DNA of 64,000 nucleotides from Aliidongia dinghuensis (GTDB taxonomy: Bacteria > Pseudomonadota > Alphaproteobacteria > ATCC43930 > CGMCC-115725). The stretch is taken from contig NZ_BMJQ01000004.1 of the NCBI RefSeq assembly GCF_014643535.1, forward strand, positions 1 to 64,000, written 5' to 3'. Made by a program: the position numbers and the translations under genes. Below the pieces are notes generated by a model. It ran no database searches and had not been told where the DNA came from. It saw only the letters and a program-made list of their open reading frames with translations. This document shows positions 39,843 through 53,106 of the stretch, piece after piece (within the stretch, counting starts at the first letter, position 1; each line of letters opens with the position of its first letter).

Positions 39843-41165
39843 TTGGGTACGGCAATCACACTTGATGTGGCCGGAGTGTCGGTCACGTACAGCAAAAACC
39901 ACCGAGGAATTGATCACGGATCGATCTTTCAGGAACAGGATCGGAGGGCGGTCAAAAGCGATCAGCTCGACTATGACTGGTACCAGGAAAAGGGGGAGGA
40001 TCCGACGTCATCTGAGATGGCGTTCACGCGGCCGCTCAAGGACGTTGTTCCTCGGCTGGAGTTGCTGGGCTTCAACCTGGACCGCGTGGAGCGAGAATAC
40101 GCCGCCGTCGCGCGGCATTGGCTGGATCAAAGGTCAACACTTCAGGGCGAGGATGACCAGCCCGGCCCTGATCTGATGAGCTTTGCGGAGTTCTTCGCAT
40201 TTGTGACGGCGCACCCGCTCGACAGTCTCGACGACACTTTCATCTCAAGTACAGATGACGCGACCGAATCGAAGATCCGCGGGCGTTTCGCCGCCATGCC
40301 GCTTGAACGGATTCCCAACTATCGGTCTTATGACGTCAACGCCTACTCCGAGCGAAGTTTCTTCGGCGAACTGGTGGGGATTCTCGATCCATATTCCGTA
40401 TTGCGAATATTGGCAGAGGCGCAGGCGAACAAGGATGTTCCTGTTATCTGGCAGTACGGCCCCCTGGTGCAAGGGGGCTATGCCGCAGAGAGGGAGTTTG
40501 CGCCTCACGCCCGCCGGACAGAGACGTTCCTGATAGCCACCGAAGGCAGCTCAGACGTCCACATTCTAAAGCACGCATTATCGCTGCTGCGGCCAGGGAT
40601 CGCGGATTTCTTTCGCTTCATCGACGTGAGCGAGAGCCACCCGTTTTCGGGTACGGGCAACCTCGTTAAGTTCGCCGAAGGGCTCGCGAAGATTGACGTC
40701 CAAAACCAGGTTGTTTTCCTATTCGATAACGACGCCGAGGGACTCGACGCTCATCAGCGGCTGTCAGGGTTCCCCCTGCCTGCGAATATGCGCGGGATAA
40801 TGCTCCCCGAGCTGGATGACTTCCGTTCGTTCCCCGCGCAGGGGCCTGAGGGCATCCGAAACTCTGACATCAACCGGCGAGCCGCCGCGATCGAGTGCTA
40901 TCTCGATCTCGATGCAGGTGGACATCCGCCGGCCAAGGTGCTCTGGACCAACTACAAGAAGAGCCTGGGCAGCTACCAGGGGGCGCTGGAATACAAGGAG
41001 TCCTATTCCAAGGAATTTCTGAGGCAGACGGCTGCGACGTTGGCCGAAGGTCAGTATGACACTCGCAAGATCGAGGCTGTCCTCGATCGGCTGGTTGCGG
41101 AGTGTACTGCCATCGCGGTCGACCGATGGAACCCGAGTGAGGTCGAGTTGAGAGATGTCTTCTGA
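39843..41165 (+). CDS. HEPN/Toprim-associated domain protein with Toprim nuclease domain
   Basis: A 440-residue protein starting at TTG 39843 behind GGGGGAA. The N-terminal region (1 to about 190), opening GTAITLDVAGVSVTYSKNH and SIFQEQDRR, resembles the HEPN/Toprim-associated N-terminal domain. The C-terminal Toprim domain (about 225-330) has LIATEGSSDVHILKHAL (Glu) and VVFLFDNDAEG (Asp-x-Asp), as in OLD-type nucleases. The stop overlaps the start of the protease gene (TGATG). It is probably the nuclease effector of a two-gene antiphage system. Confidence 0.8.
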   Translation: MGTAITLDVAGVSVTYSKNHRGIDHGSIFQEQDRRAVKSDQLDYDWYQEKGEDPTSSEMAFTRPLKDVVPRLELLGFNLDRVEREYAAVARHWLDQRSTLQGEDDQPGPDLMSFAEFFAFVTAHPLDSLDDTFISSTDDATESKIRGRFAAMPLERIPNYRSYDVNAYSERSFFGELVGILDPYSVLRILAEAQANKDVPVIWQYGPLVQGGYAAEREFAPHARRTETFLIATEGSSDVHILKHALSLLRPGIADFFRFIDVSESHPFSGTGNLVKFAEGLAKIDVQNQVVFLFDNDAEGLDAHQRLSGFPLPANMRGIMLPELDDFRSFPAQGPEGIRNSDINRRAAAIECYLDLDAGGHPPAKVLWTNYKKSLGSYQGALEYKESYSKEFLRQTAATLAEGQYDTRKIEAVLDRLVAECTAIAVDRWNPSEVELRDVF

Positions 41166-42223
41166 TGGTTGAGAAAAGCGCCTTTCAGGAGACCTACGTG
41201 CGCGCGGCTGGGGCCGTCGCGTTCGTCGCCGTCATCGATGCCAGCGGGCACGAAGGAATCGGCACAGCGTTTCATATCGGCGATGGGATCTTCGTAACGG
41301 CCCGGCACGTCGTCGATGGCGTGACCGTCAAGGAGATCGCTACGACCAAGTCGGCGCATCTCACGGAAGAGGCAGGTGGGAAGGCGGGACCGCCGCGGCG
41401 GCTGAACGTGATCGACGGACCCTATTTCGGTCGAGATGATCTCGATGTCGCGGTCTTCCGGGTCAATCTCGGTGACACGCCCCTACCGGCGATCACCGTC
41501 AGCCAGCATACTGACTATTCGCTCGGAGAGAACGACCTCGTACTTTCCGATATTCTCGTCATCGGCTACCCACCGATCCCGTTCACAACGGTTCCAAACC
41601 AGGTGGTCACGCTCGGACAGATCAACGCCGTGGTGCGCGTGCGTCATTCTCCGGTCTTGCATTTCATCGCCTCCGCCATGGCGCGAGGCGGGTTCAGCGG
41701 AGGCGTCGCGCTCGATCAGTCCGGTACCGCGCTGGCGCTCGTGACCGAGAGCCTGGGCCAAGGCGATATGCCGGTGGAGACCGGCTACATGAGCCTTCTG
41801 TCGATCGAGCCTGCTGTGGATCTTGCGGCCGAAAAGTTTGGGTTTGGAGTTGAGAGCGGCTATCCCGGCCGATACACTGACACTTTGTTCGCGGCGAAGT
41901 TTTCGGATCCGTCCAGCCGGTCGTTGAGCTCCTTCATCTATGACGCGAGTCTCTACGTGTACGACGACGATCGCGATGTGTTCGTCGAAATCAACTGTGC
42001 CGACGAGACGTTGCTGGCCGAGGCGGTCGCGACGTTTCACGCTGTCACGCCTCTGACCCGCCACGACGTCGTCGATGGGTCCGTCCTGTACACCCCGGAC
42101 GAGAATCCGTCCGCAAAATTGCTTGCGGCGGGAGGCGAGGCGGTCGCTGCGGTGTTCGAGCGAGCCGGCTACAAGAGGATGGCGTCGGAACGCAGTCAGT
42201 GGCAGCTCAAACGGAAGGCGTAG
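41165..42223 (+). CDS. Trypsin-like serine protease
   Basis: A 352-residue cytoplasmic protein without signal peptide. The trypsin-like triad is readable: His48 in FVTARHVVDG, Asp94 in RDDLDVAVFRV and Ser178 in ARGGFSGGVAL. A C-terminal domain of about 130 residues follows, of no recognised family. It is translationally coupled to the upstream Toprim protein. Trypsin-like proteases occur as activators or effectors in bacterial immune systems, so it may process its partner or a host protein after infection. Confidence 0.85.
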   Translation: MVEKSAFQETYVRAAGAVAFVAVIDASGHEGIGTAFHIGDGIFVTARHVVDGVTVKEIATTKSAHLTEEAGGKAGPPRRLNVIDGPYFGRDDLDVAVFRVNLGDTPLPAITVSQHTDYSLGENDLVLSDILVIGYPPIPFTTVPNQVVTLGQINAVVRVRHSPVLHFIASAMARGGFSGGVALDQSGTALALVTESLGQGDMPVETGYMSLLSIEPAVDLAAEKFGFGVESGYPGRYTDTLFAAKFSDPSSRSLSSFIYDASLYVYDDDRDVFVEINCADETLLAEAVATFHAVTPLTRHDVVDGSVLYTPDENPSAKLLAAGGEAVAAVFERAGYKRMASERSQWQLKRKA

Positions 42224-42259: not shown

Positions 42260-44716
42260 CTATGCGCCTTTCCGCAGGAGATTCAGATTGAGCGCGCCGC
42301 ATCCGCACCTCAATGCTTCCTTTCTGCCTCGGTCGGGAGCGACGAAGTACATCTCGTTGCAGGTGCCGCAGCCGAATGCGTCAGTGAATGCACGGAAGGC
42401 GGCGACCACGGGGATGAAGTCCTCCCTCTTGAGGTCGGCCCAGTCGTTGAAGTGAACGGCCGTGTTGATCTGCCAAGTCTCGTAGCCTGTCTTGGTCTTG
42501 GCTTCTCCGAAGGCAACCTCGATGGCGCCGATGCACTCGACGACGTCCTTCTGGTTCCAGGAATTTGCGGCGACCTTGGCCTTTTTCAGGAGGTCGCCCA
42601 GCGTGCTCGTCGCATTGGGGAGAAGATCGCCGAGCATGAACTGGGCGTCGCCTCTGAACTCAACATCGGCGCGTAGCCGATCGCAAGCCTCTTTGGCGAA
42701 ATGTTCGAGGTAGTGGCGGAGCAGAGCGGCAGCGGCGCGCACATCGTTTTTGGCAAGGTAGCCTTCAATCTCGGCCCAGACGTCGCGATCGTCCCACTCG
42801 GTCGGGCCAAGATCCACGGTCCAGGTCCGGAAGTGGGCGAAGTTGCGGCCCTTGATGAGTCCCTCGGACTTCATGTGACGCAGCCAGATTTCGTCATGCG
42901 TTGTGAAGATGAACTGCGTGTTGGGGAACATCTCTTTGAGGAGGGTGCAAACCTGACGGCGGTGGCCGGCGTCGACCGACATCAGCACGTCGTCCAGGAC
43001 CGCGAACGTAAAACTCGTTCCGAGCAGATGGTTCATTAGAGCAAGGTAGAGGCAGAGACCCATTCCGTCCTGGTGGCCCTCGCTGTGATATGCGCCAGGC
43101 GGAAAGTGGCCGCGTCCATAGAAGTCTACGTCGAAACCGAGTTTGCCGATCGAGGGCATCAGCTTTGCCGTGAATGCCTTCTCGTCGTCCTCGTTGATTT
43201 TCCGGTAGTAGCTCGCGAAGGCGATCTCTACGTCCTTGTAGATCTTTTCGAGCGCGGTCGTCGTGACAGTGCCATAGCTGGTGAAGACCTTCGTGGCGCG
43301 GTCAGCGCGGACCTTGCCGGCAGCCAACTTGAGTCGCGCGGTTCGGTAGATCTCAAGCCGCTCCTGCGCGAGGACCAGGAAGTCACGCGCTGCGTCCTGC
43401 TTGGTGGGTTCGGGTATTGCCACGATCGCGGCCGTAAGCGCGGCCAGCGATGGCTCCATATCCGGAACGCTGTGAGCCGCCGATAGGACCGCGCGTGTGT
43501 CATCGAGCGGCAAGAGCTTCTGAAGCTGCTGGTATCGTCCCCGAAGAACGGTCCTGAACTCGGTGAGCGCGGTGGCGACGATCTTCGGCGAGAACAGGCC
43601 AGCGTAATCGATCATCGTGTTCAAGGCGGTGCCGGCGGCATGGAGGGCGTCGAGGATCGGCTTCAGTTCCGCTTCGATCGCCTCGCGCCTTTTGCTCACA
43701 TCTTCAAGGTGCGCCAGCTTGCCGGACAGGTGGCCCGTGAAAGCGTCCGGCTCGAACGGCGTGTCGCAGACCGGGCACGCGGCCCCATCATACAGCTCCA
43801 ACGCCGACTTCAGGAGGGCCTCGCGCGACAGGCCGTTGAGGCTTGCGGCATCCTTCCCGAGCTCGGCCGCGTTGGCCTCTGCGGTTGAGCATGCTTGCTT
43901 GAAGGACGCACTCTCGAGCGCCTTGAGTGCCTCTCGCAAGGTTGCAAGATCGGCGGCAGCCTGCACCTTCGGCACGCGGCCCGGTGCGCTCGCGGTGGTC
44001 GTGGTCAGCCCATCTTTGACCGAGGTGTTGGCCTCAAGGTCGGTCAGCGGTGGGAGGCCGAGCAGCTCCCGGCGCGGATTGACCGCGTCGAGGACGGATT
44101 TCTTGCTGAGCTGTGCGGTGTCAAGCACGGCAAGAAGATTGGTGATGGCGTCTCTCTCTGAGCGCTCCAACCCCGGGAGGTCCTTGGTGCAGGTATTGGC
44201 GATCTTCTGCAGCACGCCCCGCAGCCGCTCAATGTCGTCGAGGCGGAGGAGCGATTGGACCTCCTTTGACCGTTGGCCTGGCTCGGAGATGACATACCGG
44301 ATCAGCTCGCGGCGCGAGAGGACGAACTCTGGGTGAAGGTTGACACTCTCGAACGCGGCGATGACGTCCTTGTCGGCCGGCTCGATCTCCGGCGCGCTTG
44401 CCGATTTCACAGTTCGGCGGATCTGGGCCTTTTTATTGCCGAGGGAAGGGATCGTGACGTCAAGGGTCACCGACGCGGCCTCGGGCTTGTTGCGGCTGTC
44501 GACATGGGGACCGTGCGCCTTGACCGAGAGACCTCCGGTCCCCGCGCCGGCTAGGCGCGAGATGTTGCCAGTCAGGGCAAACTCGATCGCATCCACGATG
44601 CCGCTCTTGCCGGTCCCATTCGGTCCGCAGGCAGCGAAGTTCTGACCCTTGAGCCCAAGGGTCAGCTCTCGGATGCCGCGAAACTCCTTGATGTGTATCT
44701 TGTCGATCCGGATCAT
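42260..44716 (-). CDS. Rad50/SMC-like ATPase with zinc hook
   Basis: An 818-residue ABC-type ATPase. Walker A is ACGPNGTGKSGIVDAIEFAL (about 30-49). A coiled-coil arm follows with a zinc-hook-like ACPVCDTPFEPDAF (about 312). The second half has SEGHQDGMGLCLYLAL (signature region) and AVLDDVLMSVDAGHRRQV (Walker B/D-loop, about 575). The C-terminus adds a zinc-ribbon-like FGCGTCNEM...LRCGCGALN. It lacks the nuclease domain of RloC or OLD proteins. It is coupled by a 4-base overlap to the small gene upstream. Confidence 0.85.
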   Translation of the reverse strand: MIRIDKIHIKEFRGIRELTLGLKGQNFAACGPNGTGKSGIVDAIEFALTGNISRLAGAGTGGLSVKAHGPHVDSRNKPEAASVTLDVTIPSLGNKKAQIRRTVKSASAPEIEPADKDVIAAFESVNLHPEFVLSRRELIRYVISEPGQRSKEVQSLLRLDDIERLRGVLQKIANTCTKDLPGLERSERDAITNLLAVLDTAQLSKKSVLDAVNPRRELLGLPPLTDLEANTSVKDGLTTTTASAPGRVPKVQAAADLATLREALKALESASFKQACSTAEANAAELGKDAASLNGLSREALLKSALELYDGAACPVCDTPFEPDAFTGHLSGKLAHLEDVSKRREAIEAELKPILDALHAAGTALNTMIDYAGLFSPKIVATALTEFRTVLRGRYQQLQKLLPLDDTRAVLSAAHSVPDMEPSLAALTAAIVAIPEPTKQDAARDFLVLAQERLEIYRTARLKLAAGKVRADRATKVFTSYGTVTTTALEKIYKDVEIAFASYYRKINEDDEKAFTAKLMPSIGKLGFDVDFYGRGHFPPGAYHSEGHQDGMGLCLYLALMNHLLGTSFTFAVLDDVLMSVDAGHRRQVCTLLKEMFPNTQFIFTTHDEIWLRHMKSEGLIKGRNFAHFRTWTVDLGPTEWDDRDVWAEIEGYLAKNDVRAAAALLRHYLEHFAKEACDRLRADVEFRGDAQFMLGDLLPNATSTLGDLLKKAKVAANSWNQKDVVECIGAIEVAFGEAKTKTGYETWQINTAVHFNDWADLKREDFIPVVAAFRAFTDAFGCGTCNEMYFVAPDRGRKEALRCGCGALNLNLLRKGA

Positions 44717-45017: not shown

Positions 45018-45641
45018 CTAGGAATAGAAGCGCCCCGCATCGATGCCGATTTCGATGATCTCTGTTCCAAGGAAGCCGTAAACGGGCAAACCCGGAAAAG
45101 CGGCAATGACATCGGCCAGCTTGAGCCGAACCTGTCCGACGGTTGGGCCGAGGTCAGGCATCGACGGATCGTAGCCGGGGATTTCCGTGAAAGGGATCGC
45201 CTTGGCGACAACAAGCTCCTCGGCGAGATTGACGAATATACCGAGTGTATCGGCGTCCGTTACGGTCCATTCGTTGTAGTCGCTCGCCTTGGCGAAAGTT
45301 TCCTCCACGGCATGCCGCGAGAATGGGACGCCGGCTCCGGTCCTCTTGCCGGTCACGGGATCATAGGAGGTTCCGGCGTCACCCGGGCAGACAGATGCGA
45401 TTGAGGCCGTCGAGCGCGGGTTCAGAATGATGCCAATGGCGCCGTAGGTGTGAGTGTGAGCGGGCCAGATGAGTGAGCAGCTCAGCTCCTTGCCCTGGTT
45501 GGCGCAGATCTCAATGGCGTTCTTCAGATCATCGGGAAAGAGGAGGCCCCCCGTCCCTTCATCGGCTTTACCTGGCCGCGAGCAGTGAACGATTAGCGCT
45601 TTGCGCGCCTTCAGTAATTCAAGCAGTTCATCTTTGGTCAT
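45018..45641 (-). CDS. Unknown protein heading the ATPase operon
   Basis: A 207-residue protein from ATG 45641 (RBS-like GGGGGAT). Notable segments are ALIVHCSRPGKADEGTGG, LIWPAHTHTYGAIGIILNPRS, CPGDAGTSYDPVTGKRTGAGVPF and a C-terminal PVYGFLGTEIIEIGIDAG. No family recognised; the HTH tripeptide in PAHTHTYG and conserved-looking Cys/Gly turns suggest an enzyme. It is 71 bases upstream of the small gene and ATPase, so it could be the effector of that unit. Confidence 0.6.
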   Translation of the reverse strand: MTKDELLELLKARKALIVHCSRPGKADEGTGGLLFPDDLKNAIEICANQGKELSCSLIWPAHTHTYGAIGIILNPRSTASIASVCPGDAGTSYDPVTGKRTGAGVPFSRHAVEETFAKASDYNEWTVTDADTLGIFVNLAEELVVAKAIPFTEIPGYDPSMPDLGPTVGQVRLKLADVIAAFPGLPVYGFLGTEIIEIGIDAGRFYS

Positions 45642-45827
45642 GGATCCCCCGGCGTGTGACTTCTGTCCGGTCTGCCAGTGAAAATCGCGGATTCGTACTT
45701 TTATCTTGTTGATGTGCAGGCCGGGAATATGGTTGTCGCATGCGCGCAGGCCCTTTGGCGGCAGTCCCGCTAAGATTAATCCTTGGCCGAGCACGACGCG
45801 GCGATCGGCGATCTCCAGAAGGTATCC

Positions 45828-46268
45828 ATGGAGCGGCTCACCCTTAAATACGTCTGGAAGCAGAAGGAAATTCCGGTCGTACTGCGCCGGACTGGACGTG
45901 GTGAGAAGCTTCGGGTGCGACTGCCATTTGCTGACGACAACCGGCAATGGCTTCAGAACGAGCGACGAACGGCTCCTGAATGGATTGGCGGGACAGATGC
46001 CTACTGGGAGCTGCCGAAGTCCTGGTTCAACGACTTCGTCGATCGGGCGCTGCAGCGCTACGGCAAGGTCTACATCATCCAGCCTTATCGCGAGCAGGAG
46101 ATCTGCGCGCGGGCGTGCCAGGAAGCACAGGGGCACGAATGCCAGTGCTCCTGCATGGGCGCCAACCATGGCATCGGCAACGACGGTTCCTGGTTCGAGG
46201 TCTCCGATACCTTCTCGACCCGCTGGGGCGAGCGCGAGCTCGCCTGTCGTTTGCTCACAGCCCGGTAG
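45828..46268 (+). CDS. Cys-rich protein of unknown function
   Basis: A 146-residue protein starting MERLTLKYVWKQKEIPVVLRR at 45828 behind AGAAGG. The C-terminal half has ELPKSWFNDFVDRALQRYGKVYIIQPYREQE and then CARACQEAQGHECQCSCMGANHG, a likely zinc-binding cluster. It is convergent with the CBASS operon and divergent from the 45018-45641 gene, so it is probably a separate unit. Not assigned to a family. Confidence 0.65.
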   Translation: MERLTLKYVWKQKEIPVVLRRTGRGEKLRVRLPFADDNRQWLQNERRTAPEWIGGTDAYWELPKSWFNDFVDRALQRYGKVYIIQPYREQEICARACQEAQGHECQCSCMGANHGIGNDGSWFEVSDTFSTRWGERELACRLLTAR

Positions 46269-46290
46269 GGACTCGTGCCCAATCAGAAAC

Positions 46291-47325
46291 TCACGTCGTC
46301 GGGCAACGGATGAATTGCTCGACCGCGCCGTCGAGAAACATCCGCTCAATGTGGTGCCCGGCGCCATCGACGAGACTGCGCGCCACCATCGGCAGCTCCC
46401 GGACCGAGCGTTGCACGTCATCCATCGCGATTGGCGCATCGCTTTCTGGCACATCGATCCGTGTGACGTTGTTCTTGCCGACCAGCAGATAGGCTTGGCC
46501 CAGGGCATTTCGGGACTGCGCGCGGGCGGCCGCATTGAACGAACGCAGGAACGCCCAGTCCCTGATGCCGCCGTTGCGCACCCGCTCATCGACGGTGAAG
46601 GTGGAGTCACCCGTGCCCAGGCTCAGGATACGCACGTCCTCGCGCGCAATGTCGAAGCAGGCAAGGGCGTCGACCAGGGCGTTCATGACCGGATTGTTGG
46701 CCCAGATGCCACCATCGATCATGATGTAGCCGTCGTCCTCGACGCCGGGGTAATAGGAGGGGGCCGCCGTCGTGTGGAGCGCCACATGGGCGAACTTCTT
46801 GTGGCGGTCCTTCTGGTAGTCCGGGTGGTGCGGCGTCTTGTAGAGGAACGGCTCGCCGTGACGCCCTTCGAAGCTCGGGATCACCAGGCGGGTGACGGCA
46901 TCGTCGAGCACCTTGTCGCCAAAGATCCGCAGTAGCTCCTCTTTGAGGGCTGCTTGGTCGTGCTTTGGCTTGAACACCCAGCGCAAGGCCCTCGACAATT
47001 TGCCGAGCCCAGCCGCCGGCGGAAAGATGCGCTCGCCGCGCTCGAGATATATGTTCAACGCCTGTCGGGATGTCATCCCGTGGGCAAGGGCGAGTGCGAT
47101 GATGCCGCCTGTTGAGGTGCCAGCAATCATGTCGAAATGATTGGTGATGGAGGCGCCGCCCAGGAAGCGGTTTTCGAGTTCGGCCAGCACCGCTGCGGGG
47201 AAGACGCCGCGAATGCCGCCACCGTCGATTGAGAGAATGCGGAAAGGCCGGCCCAGCGGCCACGGCTGTTTCAGGCGCGCGTGCTGGATGGTGCCGTCCG
47301 ATCGCCGCGGCGGAACATAGTTCAT
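46291..47325 (-). CDS. capV: CapV-like patatin phospholipase (CBASS effector)
   Basis: A 344-residue patatin-like phospholipase. The oxyanion loop DGGGIRG (residues 34-40), the nucleophile motif GTSTGG with Ser71, and MIDGGIWANNP with the catalytic Asp are all intact. In CBASS, CapV is activated by cyclic dinucleotides and degrades the inner membrane, killing infected cells. The start ATG 47325 overlaps the stop of the E2 gene (ATGA). It is the last gene of the CBASS operon. Confidence 0.92.
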   Translation of the reverse strand: MNYVPPRRSDGTIQHARLKQPWPLGRPFRILSIDGGGIRGVFPAAVLAELENRFLGGASITNHFDMIAGTSTGGIIALALAHGMTSRQALNIYLERGERIFPPAAGLGKLSRALRWVFKPKHDQAALKEELLRIFGDKVLDDAVTRLVIPSFEGRHGEPFLYKTPHHPDYQKDRHKKFAHVALHTTAAPSYYPGVEDDGYIMIDGGIWANNPVMNALVDALACFDIAREDVRILSLGTGDSTFTVDERVRNGGIRDWAFLRSFNAAARAQSRNALGQAYLLVGKNNVTRIDVPESDAPIAMDDVQRSVRELPMVARSLVDGAGHHIERMFLDGAVEQFIRCPTT

Positions 47326-47774
47326 TGTGTTGTCTCCCTTGCCTCGCCGAGCTCCTGTCCGGCGTGGCGCCCGCCGCCGGTCCAGCGCCCGGTCATCAAC
47401 CAAAGTTCGTAGCAGGCGAGCCAGTCGAGCGCCCAAGGGACGGTCGTGCTGGCGATGGTCATCGCCGATGACCATTCCCGTTCGCGGGGATCGAACAGGC
47501 AAAGAGTCGGATCATCGGCCGGCGGATAGACATGGGGTAGCTGCCCCTCGGAATTGCCGGGTAACCGAATCAGTTCGGGGGAGAGCACCCGCACCTCGGG
47601 GAACGACCCGAGCTCGTAGCGGATTTCGAGCGAGTAGCTTGAGTATTGCGGCTTGACGCTTCCCACCCACCGAGCGGACTGAGTGCGGCGATCTACGCGG
47701 CGCGCAGCGAACCGCGGCCAAGCCGCCTTCATCGCGGCGATCTGCTGGTCGATGGAGAGGGGCCCCGCCCGCAT
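47322..47774 (-). CDS. E2-like protein of short type II CBASS
   Basis: A 150-residue protein with an E2/UBC-like fold pattern: strands YSLEIRYELGSFPEVRVLSPEL, the proline-rich LPHVYPPADDPTLCLFDP with the presumptive catalytic Cys92, and a C-terminal helix WALDWLACYELWLMTG. Stand-alone E2-like proteins replace the larger E1-E2 Cap2 in short type II CBASS and are thought to conjugate the CD-NTase. It is coupled to the CD-NTase (TAATG) and to the phospholipase gene. Confidence 0.85.
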   Translation of the reverse strand: MRAGPLSIDQQIAAMKAAWPRFAARRVDRRTQSARWVGSVKPQYSSYSLEIRYELGSFPEVRVLSPELIRLPGNSEGQLPHVYPPADDPTLCLFDPREREWSSAMTIASTTVPWALDWLACYELWLMTGRWTGGGRHAGQELGEARETTQ

Positions 47775-49021
47775 TAGATCTTGCGCCCGAAGAAAGTGTG
47801 AGGCCGCGCCGCCGAGACCACCGGGTTGACGGTCGACGCCGCGACCGCAGCGGCGGTAGGCAACAGCACGCCGCCGCGCCGCGTGTAGAGCTGGCGCGAC
47901 TGCTGGATCCCGCCGCCAACCTCCGTGGCGATCTGGTCGGCGGCACGGGTCACGACACGGTCACCGAAGTCGTCGCGCAACGTGTCCATCATCGCGTTGG
48001 GGAACATCTCGCCCTTGCGCATCGCCTCGAGCGAATGGACGAGTTCGCGCAGGTGTTCGGCGAACTCATCCTGCTGAGCGATGGATTCCGGCCAGCGGTC
48101 GGTAAACACATCGGCGGCGCATACAGGATTGGCGACATGCAGGAGCCGCCGGTAGAGCGAGGCCTGCTCGATGTCGCGAATGATCCAGCTCGCGAGGCGA
48201 ACGAGCATGGCGCTGAGCGACATGTTCGGCTGCGCGGCGAGCCCGGCGTAGTAGGAGAGCATCACCGACGGCGGAATCCGGCCGGCATACCTGGCATAGC
48301 GAATGTTGCGGAAGCGCTTGAGGAGCTGGAGGGCCAGCGTCGCCGTGTTCTTGACGATGAAGTCACACTGATCCGGAACGTCGTCCACATCGGCGTCGGC
48401 GCGCGCGGCAAGGCCGGCATGGTCAAGCCACCGCCGGTGGAACGCCTTCGCCATGCGCAATTCGAGCGGGGTTCTGCTCGCATACCACTGCGCAAAGCCA
48501 TAGGCGTTCATGTCGACGAGGCGATCGTCGGCCGAACGACGCGGACCCTTGGCGTGGGTGATCAGGCTCTCGCGATCGAGCGAAGCGTAGACGCGCAACG
48601 ACGGCGTGACGTCGAGGTGCATCTTGTCGGCGTAGAACAAGGTGACGCAGCGTGTCTGCCGCAACACCCGCTGCACGGGATAGTCGGCAAGTGCGGCTTC
48701 GAGCTCGATCAGGATTTCAAGCGGCGCCATGCCGCGAAAGCGGCCGCCGAGCTGCGAGACGATGTCGAGATCATACTCGTCGTCGGTGCCGCGGGTCGAA
48801 ATCGTGGCATCGATCGCCATGGAGCCCTGCGGGTAGAAGTGCTCGATCTGGTCGAAGAAGGCGGTCGTCGCCTCGAGGTGGCGGCGCACAGCCTCGTAGC
48901 GCGACTTCGCCTTGTCGTGCAGCGAGGGCGGGAGCTGAACGCTGAGCGCGATCTCCGCGAGGATGCGGTCGAGAGGGTCGTCGAACGGATTGAGGCCAGT
49001 CGGCGCAAGCTGGATGTTCAC
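47774..49021 (-). CDS. CD-NTase, cyclic oligonucleotide synthase (CBASS)
   Basis: A 415-residue nucleotidyltransferase. The active site is YPQGSMAIDATIS with Gly66-Ser67 and then DDEYDLDIVSQLGG with Asp84 and Asp86, the GS...DxD pattern of cGAS/DncV-like enzymes. The start is probably GTG 49021 behind ACGGAG; an upstream ATG at 49141 would add 40 residues overlapping the putative operators. It makes the nucleotide second messenger that activates the phospholipase. The product (for example cGAMP) cannot be told from sequence. Confidence 0.9.
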   Translation of the reverse strand: MNIQLAPTGLNPFDDPLDRILAEIALSVQLPPSLHDKAKSRYEAVRRHLEATTAFFDQIEHFYPQGSMAIDATISTRGTDDEYDLDIVSQLGGRFRGMAPLEILIELEAALADYPVQRVLRQTRCVTLFYADKMHLDVTPSLRVYASLDRESLITHAKGPRRSADDRLVDMNAYGFAQWYASRTPLELRMAKAFHRRWLDHAGLAARADADVDDVPDQCDFIVKNTATLALQLLKRFRNIRYARYAGRIPPSVMLSYYAGLAAQPNMSLSAMLVRLASWIIRDIEQASLYRRLLHVANPVCAADVFTDRWPESIAQQDEFAEHLRELVHSLEAMRKGEMFPNAMMDTLRDDFGDRVVTRAADQIATEVGGGIQQSRQLYTRRGGVLLPTAAAVAASTVNPVVSAARPHTFFGRKI

Positions 49022-49101
49022 ATCGATCTCCGTGGCGGGCTGCGTTTGCGCATCTCGCCACCGCCCGCGCGATGTTCGGGATGATATAAGGTCAAGTACG
49101 T

Positions 49102-49168
49102 CTACTCCGAACAAGATGGGAACCTTGAATGCGTCTGTCAAGGGACATAGAATATAGCTACTCCGAAC
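49102..49168. promoter_or_regulatory. Repeated CTACTCCGAAC sites between CBASS and capH
   Basis: CTACTCCGAAC occurs at 49102-49112 and 49158-49168 in the spacer between the divergent CBASS operon and the HTH/ImmA operon. A related inverted word, GTTCGGGATGA, lies near 49074. They are likely operators for the HTH protein, allowing joint control of both operons. Confidence 0.55.
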
Positions 49169-49201: not shown

Positions 49202-49522
49202 ATGAAATTTGGTGAGCGGATCAAGGACTTACGAACGAAGAAGGGCCTGACGCTCGATCAGCTCGCGCAGGAGACCGGCTCGTCGAAGAGCTATATTTGG
49301 GAGCTCGAAAACAAGAATCCGCCGAGGCCCTCGGCCGAGAAGCTGTCCGCGATTGCGGGCGCCTTAGGGGTGACCGTCGACTATCTGATCGGGGCCGACA
49401 CGCAGACGCTCAGCGAGGCCGAGGACACCGCCTTCTTCCGGCAGTACAGCGGTCTCCCTGAGGAAACGCGCCGGCAGATTCGCGAGATGGCTCGCATCCT
49501 CGACACGAAGACCCGCAAATGA
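49202..49522 (+). CDS. capH: CapH-like XRE repressor
   Basis: A 106-residue regulator: MKFGERIKDLRTKKGLTLDQLAQETGSSKSYIWELENKNPPRPSAEKLSAIAGALGVTVDYLIG is a full Cro/C1 HTH (1-65), followed by a helical tail that may carry the dimerisation and cleavage region. It overlaps the ImmA-type protease gene by 4 bases. CapH/CapP pairs next to CBASS loci repress the operon until the protease cleaves CapH. The repeats at 49102-49168 fit as its sites. Confidence 0.82.
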   Translation: MKFGERIKDLRTKKGLTLDQLAQETGSSKSYIWELENKNPPRPSAEKLSAIAGALGVTVDYLIGADTQTLSEAEDTAFFRQYSGLPEETRRQIREMARILDTKTRK

Positions 49523-50442
49523 GCGAGCCGATCCGCCTCCGGCCGCTGAAGGAAGCGGCCCGTATCACCCAGATGCTCGATCTGGTCCTTGGAGCGGATC
49601 GGTTTGATCGCGCGCCGGTGGATGTGATCAGTCTTGCGCTAGAGTATTCCCGCCAGGTCGCGCCCAATAGCCCCATCCACGAGGTTGTCGAGCGCGACAT
49701 CCCGGGCTGCGTCGGCGCGTTGGTCTATGGGGAGGCGCGGCCGCGCCAATGGGCGATCATGTACCATGTCGGTCAGTCTAACGGACGTCGCTCGTTCACC
49801 GTGGGTCACGAGTTTGCCCACTACGTCCTGCACCGGGAGCTGATCGAAGAGGACGAGGGTTTCGACGGTGGGATCTATTGCGACGAGAACGCGGTGGTTC
49901 GCCGCGACGGGTCCGGCATTGAACAGGAAGCCGACGAGTTTGCCGCCGCGCTGCTCATGCCGTTTCATGACTTTCGCCGCCAACTGCCGGCCAAGGCTCA
50001 CGCCGATTTCGAAGCGCTCGGCCGACTTGCAAAGCGCTACGGAGTTTCGCTGACAGCGGCGATCCTGCGATGGCTCGAATACACCGAGACGCGGGCGATC
50101 ATGGTGGTTTCGAATGAGGGATTCGCTCATTGGGCGAAGCCCAGCAAGGCGGCGCTTAGATCGGGGCGCTACATCCGTACGAGGGACACTGTATTCGAAC
50201 TCCCACTGCAAGCGTTTGCGGCGAGACGCGATTATTCCGAGGCGGCGCTGACCGGCATTATGCAGCAAGCGGGGGTCTGGTTTCCCGAGCCGGTGCACGA
50301 GATATGCCTTCGCTCGGATCGCTACGATCAGGAGATCACCGTGCTTCAGTTTGAAGCGGACGGCCCTCGCTTTCAGGAGGAGGAAGAAGAGAGTGACGTG
50401 TTCGACCATTTTCTACGGAACGGACAGGCTCCGGATCGTTGA
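49519..50442 (+). CDS. capP: CapP-like ImmA/IrrE metallopeptidase
   Basis: A 307-residue zinc protease: TVGHEFAHYVLHRELIEED holds the HExxH motif (about residues 97-101), with the downstream Glu in IEQEADEFAAALLMP. The N-terminal DUF955 lead region and a C-terminal domain (about 190-307) of unknown function complete it. With the overlapping HTH gene it forms the repressor/protease pair that would derepress CBASS and its own operon on DNA damage or infection. Confidence 0.85.
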   Translation: MSEPIRLRPLKEAARITQMLDLVLGADRFDRAPVDVISLALEYSRQVAPNSPIHEVVERDIPGCVGALVYGEARPRQWAIMYHVGQSNGRRSFTVGHEFAHYVLHRELIEEDEGFDGGIYCDENAVVRRDGSGIEQEADEFAAALLMPFHDFRRQLPAKAHADFEALGRLAKRYGVSLTAAILRWLEYTETRAIMVVSNEGFAHWAKPSKAALRSGRYIRTRDTVFELPLQAFAARRDYSEAALTGIMQQAGVWFPEPVHEICLRSDRYDQEITVLQFEADGPRFQEEEEESDVFDHFLRNGQAPDR

Positions 50443-50461
50443 CGCTTAGGCGGATCAGTTC

Positions 50462-51094
50462 GTGGATTTTATTCATATCGCCATTTCAGCCCGCCTGGCC
50501 CACGGCGATCTCGTCGCCGCCGACGCTGCCCTTGAAGCAGGTCCCGTCGATGACGGCGTAAGGCTCATTCTGGTGAAACAGCTTCTGGTATCCTGCGCGA
50601 ACGTCACCGATCTCGAGCTGATCTGTCGTGCGCTCTACAAGGACCATCCGGCCATTTCGGAGATCATCACGCCGCATCGGCGAAACTTCGAATTCGCCAA
50701 GTACATCCGGAACATCGCGGTTGGCCACGTCAATCCGGCACTCAGCCAGAAGACCCTCGAATGGCGGCCCGAGCTCAACGCTGTTCTTACGAAACCTGGC
50801 GCGCCGGCCGAGGCGTTTCTGGGCTACGCGGTGTTAGAGAGCGCGATCAACACCTTCGTGGACGGCGAGCGGCATCGTATCTTTGATAGTGATACCGACC
50901 TGGCTTACCCGCCAGACCAGACCCGATTCCTCAATTTCTTAGGGTCAACTGTGCATGTCGGGATCGCTTACTGCGCTGCGGTGGCCGCTGCGGCGATCGA
51001 GCACGCCAACCTGCCCAATTTCAGTGAGAACTGGCTGGAGTTGTCCGCGAAAGCAGGCGCCACCGACTTCGCTTTCATTGCGCGTAAGGGGTAG
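50462..51094 (+). CDS. Unknown helical protein with a HEPN-like R-N-x4-H motif
   Basis: A 210-residue, mostly helical protein; the likely start is GTG 50462, 19 bases after capP. The segment FAKYIRNIAVGHVNPAL contains Arg83-Asn84-x4-His89, matching the Rx4-6H signature of HEPN ribonucleases with a polar residue after Arg. Two long helices in the C-terminal half (about 155-185) fit a HEPN-like bundle. The family is not recognised by sequence; the motif alone is weak evidence. It is 2 bases from the DUF4365 gene. Confidence 0.55.
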   Translation: MDFIHIAISARLAHGDLVAADAALEAGPVDDGVRLILVKQLLVSCANVTDLELICRALYKDHPAISEIITPHRRNFEFAKYIRNIAVGHVNPALSQKTLEWRPELNAVLTKPGAPAEAFLGYAVLESAINTFVDGERHRIFDSDTDLAYPPDQTRFLNFLGSTVHVGIAYCAAVAAAAIEHANLPNFSENWLELSAKAGATDFAFIARKG

Positions 51095-51096
51095 GG

Positions 51097-53106
51097 ATGG
51101 CTGACGGTCTAGACGACCTCGACAACCTGCCGAAGCGCGACGCCAATCATGCCGCGGAAGAGAAGGCGGAAACGGCCTTCCAGGAGCGCCTAACGGCGAG
51201 CGGTCGTTTCCTGCTCCAACGCGCCGACCGCAAGGACTATGGAACGGACTGCGAGATCGAAGTCGTTGACCAGGAGCAAGTGACGAACGTCAGAGTCCAC
51301 GTGCAGCTCAAGGGGACCGAACGCCCGCTCAACGCGGATGGCTCTCTGAGCATCGAGGTCAGCCGCTCAAACCTGAATTACCTGCTGATGCATCCGCACA
51401 GCTTTTATTGCGCATATCACATTCCGACGTCGTCGCTGCGCATCTGCCTCGCGGAGACCGTGCTCCGCCAGTACGAGCACAGGGGAAAGAACTGGAGCCA
51501 CCAGCAATCGCTCACCGTCAATTTCACTGACGAGCTGACGATCGCGCGACTGGATCGGCTCGCGACGTTGGCCAGATCCGCGGCGCGGGCGGCGCGCGAT
51601 CGACGGATCGAGCAAACCCGGGCGGCGCCTGGCGACGTCGCTCGTATCCTCCGGCGCGGTGTCCCAGACATACATGTTCCGGACGATCCGGAAGTAGCCC
51701 GCCACCTCCTAGAGCACCTCTACAATCAGGACGCCGACACGGCGATCAGCGCGGCCTTTGATCGGTTCGCGGCGGTGCTCGGAGCCGGCAGCGAAGCCAT
51801 GGGCCCAGGCTACATGGCCGAGATCAATCTTGGGATGGCGGGGCTGAGCCGGTCGCGCGCCCGGATCGAGGACGCCGTGGCGCACTTCAGAGATCAGCTA
51901 GACTTGGGCCGCTACGAGCGGGGCAGCCTTCACTACACGATCGGCAATGCCCTCTCGGCGCTTGGCCGGGAGGAGGAAGCCAAGACCGCGTATGAGGCGG
52001 CTCTCGCCGATCCCGTGTTAGCTAGTGCGCCAGACCTAGCATCTCAAGGCCACAAGAACCTCGGGACGAGTCTTGAGCGGCTCGGAGATGAGAAGCGAGC
52101 AGTCGAGCACTATCGTGAAGCTTTGCGGCTGAACCCGCACCTTCCTGAAGCCCACAATGCCCTGGCCCAATTCTACGTGCGCCAGGGCGAATGGAAGGAC
52201 GCTCTCGCCCATCTGGATCAGGCCGTCTTCACCGACTCGACACGCGCTAAGGCGGCCGGCGTTGCAGGGTGGAGGGCCAACGTGCTCTTCAACATGGGAG
52301 AGGGGAGCGCGGCGTTCCGTGAGATCAATAGTCTCCTCGCCCAAGCTGACAGCGAGCCATGGATCTGGCCGTTCTTCGCGCGGCTGGTGGCGAGCTTCGG
52401 TCGGACGACGACGGAGAATGCGCGTCAAGCGCTGGGCTTCTGGCACAGGTATGTCGGGGCCTTCCCGGAGACCTCCAGCGGCCGTCGCGAGCTGCTGTTG
52501 GCAACCTTGTTCCTGCGATCAGAGGAGCAGGATATTGGCCAGACCTACGCTCGATTCCGGGTCGAGTTTGACCGCCAAATCGAGCATGTCGACGACAAGG
52601 ATGAAGCCGCGTTCTTATGGGATCGCCTTGGGCACTGGGCGCAAGATGAAGCGAACTGGATTGAGGCTGAGTTCTGTTTTCGGAAGGCCTTCGATCTGGC
52701 GGGCGGTCACTACGGCTATTGTCTCGGGACCGCCCTCAACTTTCTCGGCCGGTTTGAAGAAAGCCTGCCGATTCTGCGCGAGCAGGCCGAAGGCATTCAG
52801 CCTGATGCCATGAGCTGGTTTCAGCTCGGCGCGGCCTACGGCGATCTTGGTCAGTCCGCGCAGGCCATCGACGCTTATGAGAAGGCGCTCGCGCTCGATC
52901 CTGATTACGATCTGGCGATGTTCAATCTCGGCGGCGTTTATTGGAACAGGGGCGAGGAGATTGAGGCTTTGGCGATTTGGACGACAGCCATCGACCGTTT
53001 CCCGCATCACGAGCTCGCCGCCAAGCTCCGACGTGATATGCCGGTCTTCTTTCCTCCCACGCCCAACCGACAAGCCCAATCTTCGGACGACGTCGGTCTC
53101 GACTAG
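51097..53106 (+). CDS. DUF4365-TPR protein, putative nuclease
   Basis: A 669-residue protein. The N-terminal DUF4365 domain (about 15-160) has DYGTDCEIEVVDQE and VRVHVQLKGTERPL, i.e. D51/E53 and Q70-L-K72 of a PD-(D/E)xK-like nuclease core. The rest (about 230-640) is made of TPR helix pairs, e.g. SLHYTIGNALSALGREEEAKTAYEAAL and AWFQLGAAYGDLGQSAQAIDAYEKAL-like repeats. TPR arrays in defence proteins act as sensors or scaffolds. Last gene of the CapH/CapP-led operon and of the ICE. Confidence 0.82.
   Translation: MADGLDDLDNLPKRDANHAAEEKAETAFQERLTASGRFLLQRADRKDYGTDCEIEVVDQEQVTNVRVHVQLKGTERPLNADGSLSIEVSRSNLNYLLMHPHSFYCAYHIPTSSLRICLAETVLRQYEHRGKNWSHQQSLTVNFTDELTIARLDRLATLARSAARAARDRRIEQTRAAPGDVARILRRGVPDIHVPDDPEVARHLLEHLYNQDADTAISAAFDRFAAVLGAGSEAMGPGYMAEINLGMAGLSRSRARIEDAVAHFRDQLDLGRYERGSLHYTIGNALSALGREEEAKTAYEAALADPVLASAPDLASQGHKNLGTSLERLGDEKRAVEHYREALRLNPHLPEAHNALAQFYVRQGEWKDALAHLDQAVFTDSTRAKAAGVAGWRANVLFNMGEGSAAFREINSLLAQADSEPWIWPFFARLVASFGRTTTENARQALGFWHRYVGAFPETSSGRRELLLATLFLRSEEQDIGQTYARFRVEFDRQIEHVDDKDEAAFLWDRLGHWAQDEANWIEAEFCFRKAFDLAGGHYGYCLGTALNFLGRFEESLPILREQAEGIQPDAMSWFQLGAAYGDLGQSAQAIDAYEKALALDPDYDLAMFNLGGVYWNRGEEIEALAIWTTAIDRFPHHELAAKLRRDMPVFFPPTPNRQAQSSDDVGLD

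Follow-up and report, generated by a model that had tools for sequence, protein, structure and literature searches.

Within a 64,000-nucleotide stretch of Aliidongia dinghuensis DNA (contig NZ_BMJQ01000004.1, positions 1 to 64,000; hereafter the window), two adjacent genes lie behind the regulatory genes capH and capP: ORFA, which codes for a small helical protein, and DUF4365-TPR, which codes for a DUF4365 domain fused to tetratricopeptide repeats (TPR). We put it at about an even chance that these two genes constitute a portable accessory defence cassette, in which a predicted metal-independent RNase of the HEPN type is combined with a TPR protein carrying a DUF4365 DNA-nuclease domain. The same even judgement, made for this proposal as a whole, covers its horizontal inheritance, either as a unit or as single genes, and its position at the downstream end of varied defence operons. 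The cassette probably borrows the promoter of the defence operon that hosts it. The gene order, motifs, conservation, selection, conserved 11-bp repeats and varied neighbourhoods described below were observed directly.

On the plus strand the order is capH, capP, ORFA and DUF4365-TPR, with a 4-base overlap between the first two genes, a 19-base gap before ORFA and a 2-base gap before DUF4365-TPR. ORFA (50462..51094), an open reading frame (ORF) with a GTG start, encodes 210 amino acids (aa) and is a candidate HEPN-type RNase of an unnamed family. DUF4365-TPR (51097..53106) starts with ATG and encodes 669 aa matching PF14280 and several TPR families. Upstream of them, capH (49202..49522) encodes a helix-turn-helix (HTH) repressor (PADLOC capH, 5.6e-37), and capP (49519..50442) encodes an M78 metallopeptidase (PADLOC capP, 2.7e-72; PF06114) in which the HExxH motif reads HEFAH. 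A first-pass annotation of this DNA had placed the two genes 2 bases apart behind an HTH/ImmA pair and had described DUF4365 as fused to a TPR array, and on both points it agrees with the ORFs and the family matches obtained here.

Homologues of ORFA were observed in 13 genome loci, on seven plasmids (one of them a remnant) and in two viral contigs. Conservation was determined from an alignment (A1) of 18 ORFA sequences showing 24-98% identity to the window copy; it omits L012 (which matches from residue 53), L013 (frameshifted) and L021 (a 37-aa remnant), and predates the viral relatives L023 and L024. The R-N-x4-H signature reported in the first-pass annotation is present as R83-N84-I-A-V-G-H89 (codons 50708..50728, plus strand), and R83, N84, G88 and H89 are invariant in all 18 rows. 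HEPN domains are defined by an Rx4-6H motif, with a polar residue (N, D or H) after the arginine, located at the end of helix 3 and the start of the next loop, and a further motif of acidic type, Ex3[KR], in helix 2, is common but not universal among them (PMC3710099). The counterpart of the latter in ORFA is E52-x3-R56 (codons 50615..50629, plus strand), in predicted helix 2; R56 is kept in 18 of 18 rows and E52 in all 16 ungapped rows, two rows being gapped at this position. When ORFA was shuffled 20000 times, RNx4H appeared in 2.1% of the shuffles and R[NDH]x4-6H in 16%, and because the latter is so common by itself, conservation and position were used for the HEPN call. R-N-x4-H on its own is weak evidence; its invariance across the 18 aligned homologues is not due to chance, and a chance origin of the Rx4-6H motif was rejected on this ground.

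ORFA has no Pfam or NCBIfam family, and PADLOC returned only a weak typeIV_Cas11 match (E 0.019). A search of 18 ORFA members against Pfam at E <= 1 yielded no HEPN family, the best match of any kind being DUF7790 (0.0037, in one member), and a PDB sequence search with A1 yielded a single chain, the Glr1262 protein, at E 0.76.

Structural analysis was carried out on two AlphaFold2 models, model 1 of the window ORFA (mean predicted local distance difference test score, pLDDT, 69.2) and model 2 of a 36%-identical relative (mean pLDDT 66.8). In model 1, R83 lies in helix 63-87 and H89 in a loop, and in model 2 R85 lies in helix 75-88 and H91 in a loop; E52-x3-R56 falls inside helix 31-59 of model 1. 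The top VIA-align match of both models was 3jrt, with Z 9.8 (3.7 Å over 129 residues) for model 1 and Z 11.0 (3.5 Å over 134) for model 2, and further HEPN entries followed below it at Z 7.1-10.0. This protein (Vpc_cass2) is listed as 'Integron cassette HEPN' with Rx4-6H; like ORFA it is all-helical, and its gene is carried on mobile DNA (PMC3710099). The two differ in that the PDB search gave no sequence match between them at E <= 10, and in that helix 3 is separated from helix 4 by a long insert in both ORFA models. When model 2 was compared with a viral library using Foldseek, no match was obtained at E <= 1e-3. On balance, ORFA is likely to belong to the HEPN superfamily, as a new family, and may be an RNase.

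The DUF4365 nuclease-like domain of the second protein spans residues 21-158 (51157..51570, plus strand), with a PF14280 match of E 3e-16 (60.2 bits against a gathering score of 24.3). Alignment A4 comprises eight DUF4365-TPR sequences with identity down to 42%, and omits L002, L004, L005 and L007 (close copies), L025 and L026 (split genes), L035 (a fragment) and the plasmid records that were not fetched. In this alignment D51, E55, Q70 and K72 are invariant in all eight rows. The first-pass annotation had named E53 and K72 for mutation; K72 stands, while residue 53 is either E or Q and the QxK site is formed by Q70/K72. In TmuRE, an Argonaute-linked DUF4365 protein, Q62/K64 are named as the potential active site, Q62A/K64A was made as the inactive form, and the TmuRE complex degrades DNA nonspecifically (PMC10810196). 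Because Q70/K72 matches this site of a DNA-degrading complex, it may fairly be inferred that DUF4365-TPR is a DNA nuclease with a TPR array for sensing or docking. Although the DUF4365-APAZ short Argonaute system TmuRE-Ago shares DUF4365 and the QxK site with it (PMC10810196), the window gene has a TPR array instead of APAZ, and its operon is without an Argonaute.

In order to assess selection, ratios of nonsynonymous to synonymous substitution (dN/dS) were calculated against the window copies. For ORFA the ratio was 0.06-0.12 in nine of ten pairs, namely those with a defined dS (one of them saturated), and for DUF4365-TPR 0.15-0.19 in five of six pairs, with 0.53 in the closest pair; the comparisons of ORFA with L011 and with the plasmid homologues, and of DUF4365-TPR with L004, are not included in these figures. 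Both genes are under purifying selection. Both are also rare in the genomes sampled: the ORFA profile matched the window's own genome only, among 192, 385 and 398 genomes (overlapping sets), and the DUF4365-TPR profile at E <= 1e-60 matched one of 289 and two of 299, the window's genome being among the matches both times. Phage records held no ORFA match at E <= 0.01. As for viral contigs, ORFA relatives were found in two and DUF4365-TPR in none, and three scans with single distant homologues as queries found nothing.

Seven of the 13 ORFA genome loci also contain DUF4365-TPR and six do not (L006, L009-L013), so that there are eight pair loci counting the window. CBASS (cyclic oligonucleotide-based antiphage signalling system) and CapHP stand beside the pair in two of these, the window and L002. 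In L003 (scanned) and L004 (by matching ORFs) the pair follows Gabija GajA/GajB, an AbiJ_NTD3 protein and a small gene that we call gene X. L005 (scanned) combines the pair with a type III CBASS (HORMA, AAA, Cap17-like), an exonuclease and a divergent HTH-ImmA protein, and L008 has the core type III HORMA/Cap17 CBASS by matching ORFs, the exonuclease not being seen there. In L014 Lamassu LmuA/LmuB lies on the opposite strand, and in L007 the context is cut off, the contig beginning 680 bp upstream. The first-pass annotation had set co-occurrence of the two genes away from CBASS as a test, and such co-occurrence, away from both CBASS and CapHP, was observed. Since the pair is also found behind Gabija, behind type III CBASS or next to Lamassu, and each gene is also found alone, the first-pass description of a module specific to CapH/CapP was too narrow; CapHP accompanies the pair in only two of the eight loci (the upstream side of L007 being cut off).

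Where it occurs alone, ORFA is located behind PDC-S01 in L009 (scanned) and L010 (by matching ORFs), behind a caspase-like protein in L011 and behind CapP in L006 and, as a frameshifted copy, in L013. L012 has a truncated ORFA after a 989-aa ORF which, from its start alone, we take to be a Tn3-type transposase. A distant homologue lies near a CBASS cyclase in L017, and ORFA of L016 comes after a parA-type gene, restriction genes lying about 2.5 kb off; judged by annotation, no defence gene adjoins ORFA in L015, L019 and L020. On a Cetobacterium (Fusobacteriota) plasmid (L018:8567-9612) another distant ORFA homologue sits inside a type I restriction system, flanked by its S and R genes, with a nucleotidyltransferase gene of the HEPN/MNT partner kind (PF18765/PF01909) 89 bp upstream.

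In L003 and L004, gene X is directly before ORFA, and the DNA likeness to the window ends at 46269 and restarts at 50457 with 4 bases between, which means that the whole CBASS-CapHP block is absent there; it would either have been inserted between gene X and ORFA or have been lost from L003/L004. In L005, L007, L008 and L014 the likeness to the window starts inside the ORFA start codon (50463 or 50464). Because these edges are sharp at gene boundaries, they suggest that the ORFA/DUF4365-TPR pair travels as a cassette. Inspection of the cassette ends by eye, where no systematic repeat search was made, showed no common repeat, and no sign of an integron was noticed, no search having been aimed at integrons. 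On a Mesorhizobium plasmid with the same CBASS-CapHP (L021:9001-9111) ORFA is reduced to its first 37 codons, which looks like the scar of a cassette loss. Gene X itself (45828..46268, plus strand) encodes a Cys/His-rich protein of 146 aa (HECQCSC...NHG) that belongs to no Pfam, PADLOC or NCBIfam family and for which the PDB gave no relative below E 0.25. Its relatives occur in 32 plasmid records, and of the five read (L021, L031-L034) three are beside patatin/CBASS and one ends a SIR2/DUF87/SbcD/AAA row in Methylocella.

In published work on CapH/CapP, single-stranded DNA (ssDNA) activates CapP, CapH is cleaved and adjacent operons are thereby controlled (PMC13373217). The features of this regulator are present in the window, namely an HTH protein and an M78 peptidase with HExxH, divergent from CBASS. 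An 11-bp repeat, CTACTCCGAAC, occurs there in two exact copies (49102-49112 and 49158-49168; span 49102..49168) and is a candidate CapH operator. Two copies 56 bp apart, between the gene for the CBASS nucleotidyltransferase (CD-NTase) and capH, were found in the window, L002, L006, L013, L021 and L033, and a single copy, 33-113 bp ahead of capH, in L085 (4571), L086 (4556), L087 (4633) and L088 (4557); L087 holds a second copy elsewhere. The repeat was not found before capH in L089 and L090, so it precedes capH in 10 of the 12 CapHP loci searched. CapP of L085-L088 is 45-72% identical, and the immune operons of these loci differ. Because the repeat stands before capH even where the immune operon is quite different, conservation of the CapH operator may extend beyond CBASS.

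The gaps behind capP being 19 and 2 bases, read-through from the CapH promoter into ORFA and DUF4365-TPR is likely. From the gene order, the candidate operator and the published behaviour of CapH/CapP, we infer that a damage-activated protease would release the pair. CapP relatives were found in 41 plasmid records, and among the eight loci read (L021, L033, L085-L090) ORFA occurs in L021 only, as the 37-aa remnant. Since the other seven are without ORFA, the extra genes behind capP are particular to this branch and do not characterise CapHP generally. The seven loci L033 and L085-L090 resemble the window in having capH/capP divergent from an immune operon (CBASS or ThiF/Mov34-type genes), and five of them share the 11-bp repeat; they differ from it in that none has an ORFA relative, whereas the capHP arm of the window has two more genes.

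Several observations weigh against a cassette of RNase and nuclease. Both ORFA models are of moderate confidence, and their VIA Z values are below about 13, the level at which the tool warns for helical bundles; unrelated bundles tie with HEPN in the lists (metavinculin 9.7, SipD 10.2). Foldseek gave no PDB match at E <= 1e-3 for the ORFA model. An hhalign comparison of the ORFA alignment with home-made alignments of HEPN (PF05168), AbiU2 and LA2681 found nothing, the targets being thin (25 PF05168 segments from 30 loci, four of AbiU2 and one of LA2681) and two TPR controls scoring no lower. The first-pass assignment of ORFA to HEPN is supported by the motifs in HEPN positions and by HEPN proteins as best VIA matches, although the fold itself is of moderate confidence. 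In L014 an ACG codon stands where ORFA should start and no other start lies upstream, for which reason this copy may be shortened. The sampling is thin, with 13 genome loci of which several are mutually close, and since ORFA and DUF4365-TPR each also occur alone, their joint function is unproven. ORFA could instead be a non-catalytic helical regulator or an RNA-binding HEPN relative; it matches the profile of no catalogued HEPN family, its models are moderate, and a non-catalytic role has been proposed for part of the HEPN proteins (PMC3710099). We give this little weight, as every catalysis-linked motif residue is invariant in ORFA and the HEPN domains proposed to be non-catalytic are those without the motif (PMC3710099).

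The two genes might also be independent, DUF4365-TPR serving defence or plasmid maintenance on its own and ORFA being a HEPN toxin apart from it, brought together by defence-island position in one locus group. The six genome loci with ORFA alone agree with this, as do the plasmids: the 12 records with DUF4365-TPR and the seven with ORFA share none, and no ORFA relative (E <= 0.01) was found in the seven DUF4365-TPR plasmid loci fetched (L025-L030, L035) or beside the DUF4365-TPR copy of genome L084. We consider independence less likely than not; against it, the eight pair loci, although the defence systems next to them are of four different kinds, keep a 2-bp spacing in all but L014, where it is 3 bp. 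A tight two-gene order would also suit a toxin-antitoxin pair in which one protein neutralises the other, and HEPN proteins are common toxins, one ORFA homologue even having a nucleotidyltransferase gene before it. Such a pair is quite improbable here, for an obligate association of the two genes fails where each occurs alone, and both proteins bear enzymatic motifs.

The proposed cassette can be compared with further known systems. LA2681 HEPN proteins are likewise encoded in an operon with a TPR protein, and are also fused to TPR (PMC3710099 Table 1); in contrast, PF18733 is absent from the matches of ORFA and its relatives at E <= 1, and the TPR protein of the window bears a DUF4365 nuclease domain. 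HepT/MntA (HEPN/MNT) resembles ORFA in its structural matches (Z 7.5-10.0) and through the nucleotidyltransferase neighbour in Cetobacterium, whereas the neighbours of ORFA in the window are capP and DUF4365-TPR, with no such nucleotidyltransferase gene directly adjoining. HEPN proteins beside TPR proteins (LA2681, PMC3710099 Table 1), DUF4365 nucleases and CapH/CapP are already known. What is new, as far as we searched, is a HEPN-type family without a name, the joining of that family to a DUF4365-TPR nuclease, and the recurrence of the two genes next to defence systems of different kinds. In the literature searched, which most subscription papers lie outside, no paper joins HEPN with DUF4365, DUF4365 with tetratricopeptide, or CapH with ImmA and HEPN.

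The CBASS of the window runs divergently from capH, on the minus strand, and consists of the CD-NTase (47774..49141; PADLOC Cyclase, 2.8e-179), an E2-like protein (47322..47774; PADLOC E2, 7.3e-60) and a patatin phospholipase effector (longest ORF 46291..47502; PF01734, 1e-29; PADLOC phospholipase effector, 6.8e-118). We take it to be of type II-short. Judging by the annotated start of a Mesorhizobium homologue and the alignment of the region, the true start of the CD-NTase is probably further in, near 49016. That of the phospholipase is probably near 47325. A long minus-strand ORF beside CBASS (45018-46610) has no match in Pfam or PADLOC, and none of the 13 ORFA genome loci has a relative of its C-terminal 200 residues. 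Further away, an 818-aa SMC/AAA_23 ATPase (42260-44716, minus strand) gave LmuB-like (9e-18) and PtuA-like PADLOC matches and has no relative in the 13 loci either; its gene is adjoined by that of a trypsin-like peptidase (41165-42223; PF13365).

A wider proposal can be made tentatively, and we regard it as rather less than an even prospect. The pair, a new HEPN RNase family with a DUF4365-TPR nuclease, would be a plug-in payload that docks onto unrelated defence operons at their 3' end (CBASS types II and III, Gabija; Lamassu nearby) and takes over their regulation, and in the window it would turn the CapH/CapP arm into a second effector operon, one DNA-damage switch firing two suicide layers in both directions. 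In the main proposal, judged above at about even odds, the window cassette would have been added to the capH-capP arm of CBASS, where CapH would repress the shared divergent promoter region and hold both arms low. Damage or phage-derived ssDNA would activate CapP, CapH would be cleaved, and with its removal CBASS on one side and ORFA/DUF4365-TPR on the other, transcribed together, would rise in concert. A phage cue, perhaps sensed through the TPR array, would then lead to cleavage of DNA and RNA and to a stop of growth, as a second layer of protection. If this is true, defence operons would share exchangeable terminal payload genes, and the effector repertoire of CBASS and Gabija would therefore be wider than their core genes show. 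The window would also be a case, open to testing, in which a single CapH/CapP switch drives CBASS and an additional RNase/nuclease pair, and for which a definite candidate operator is available.

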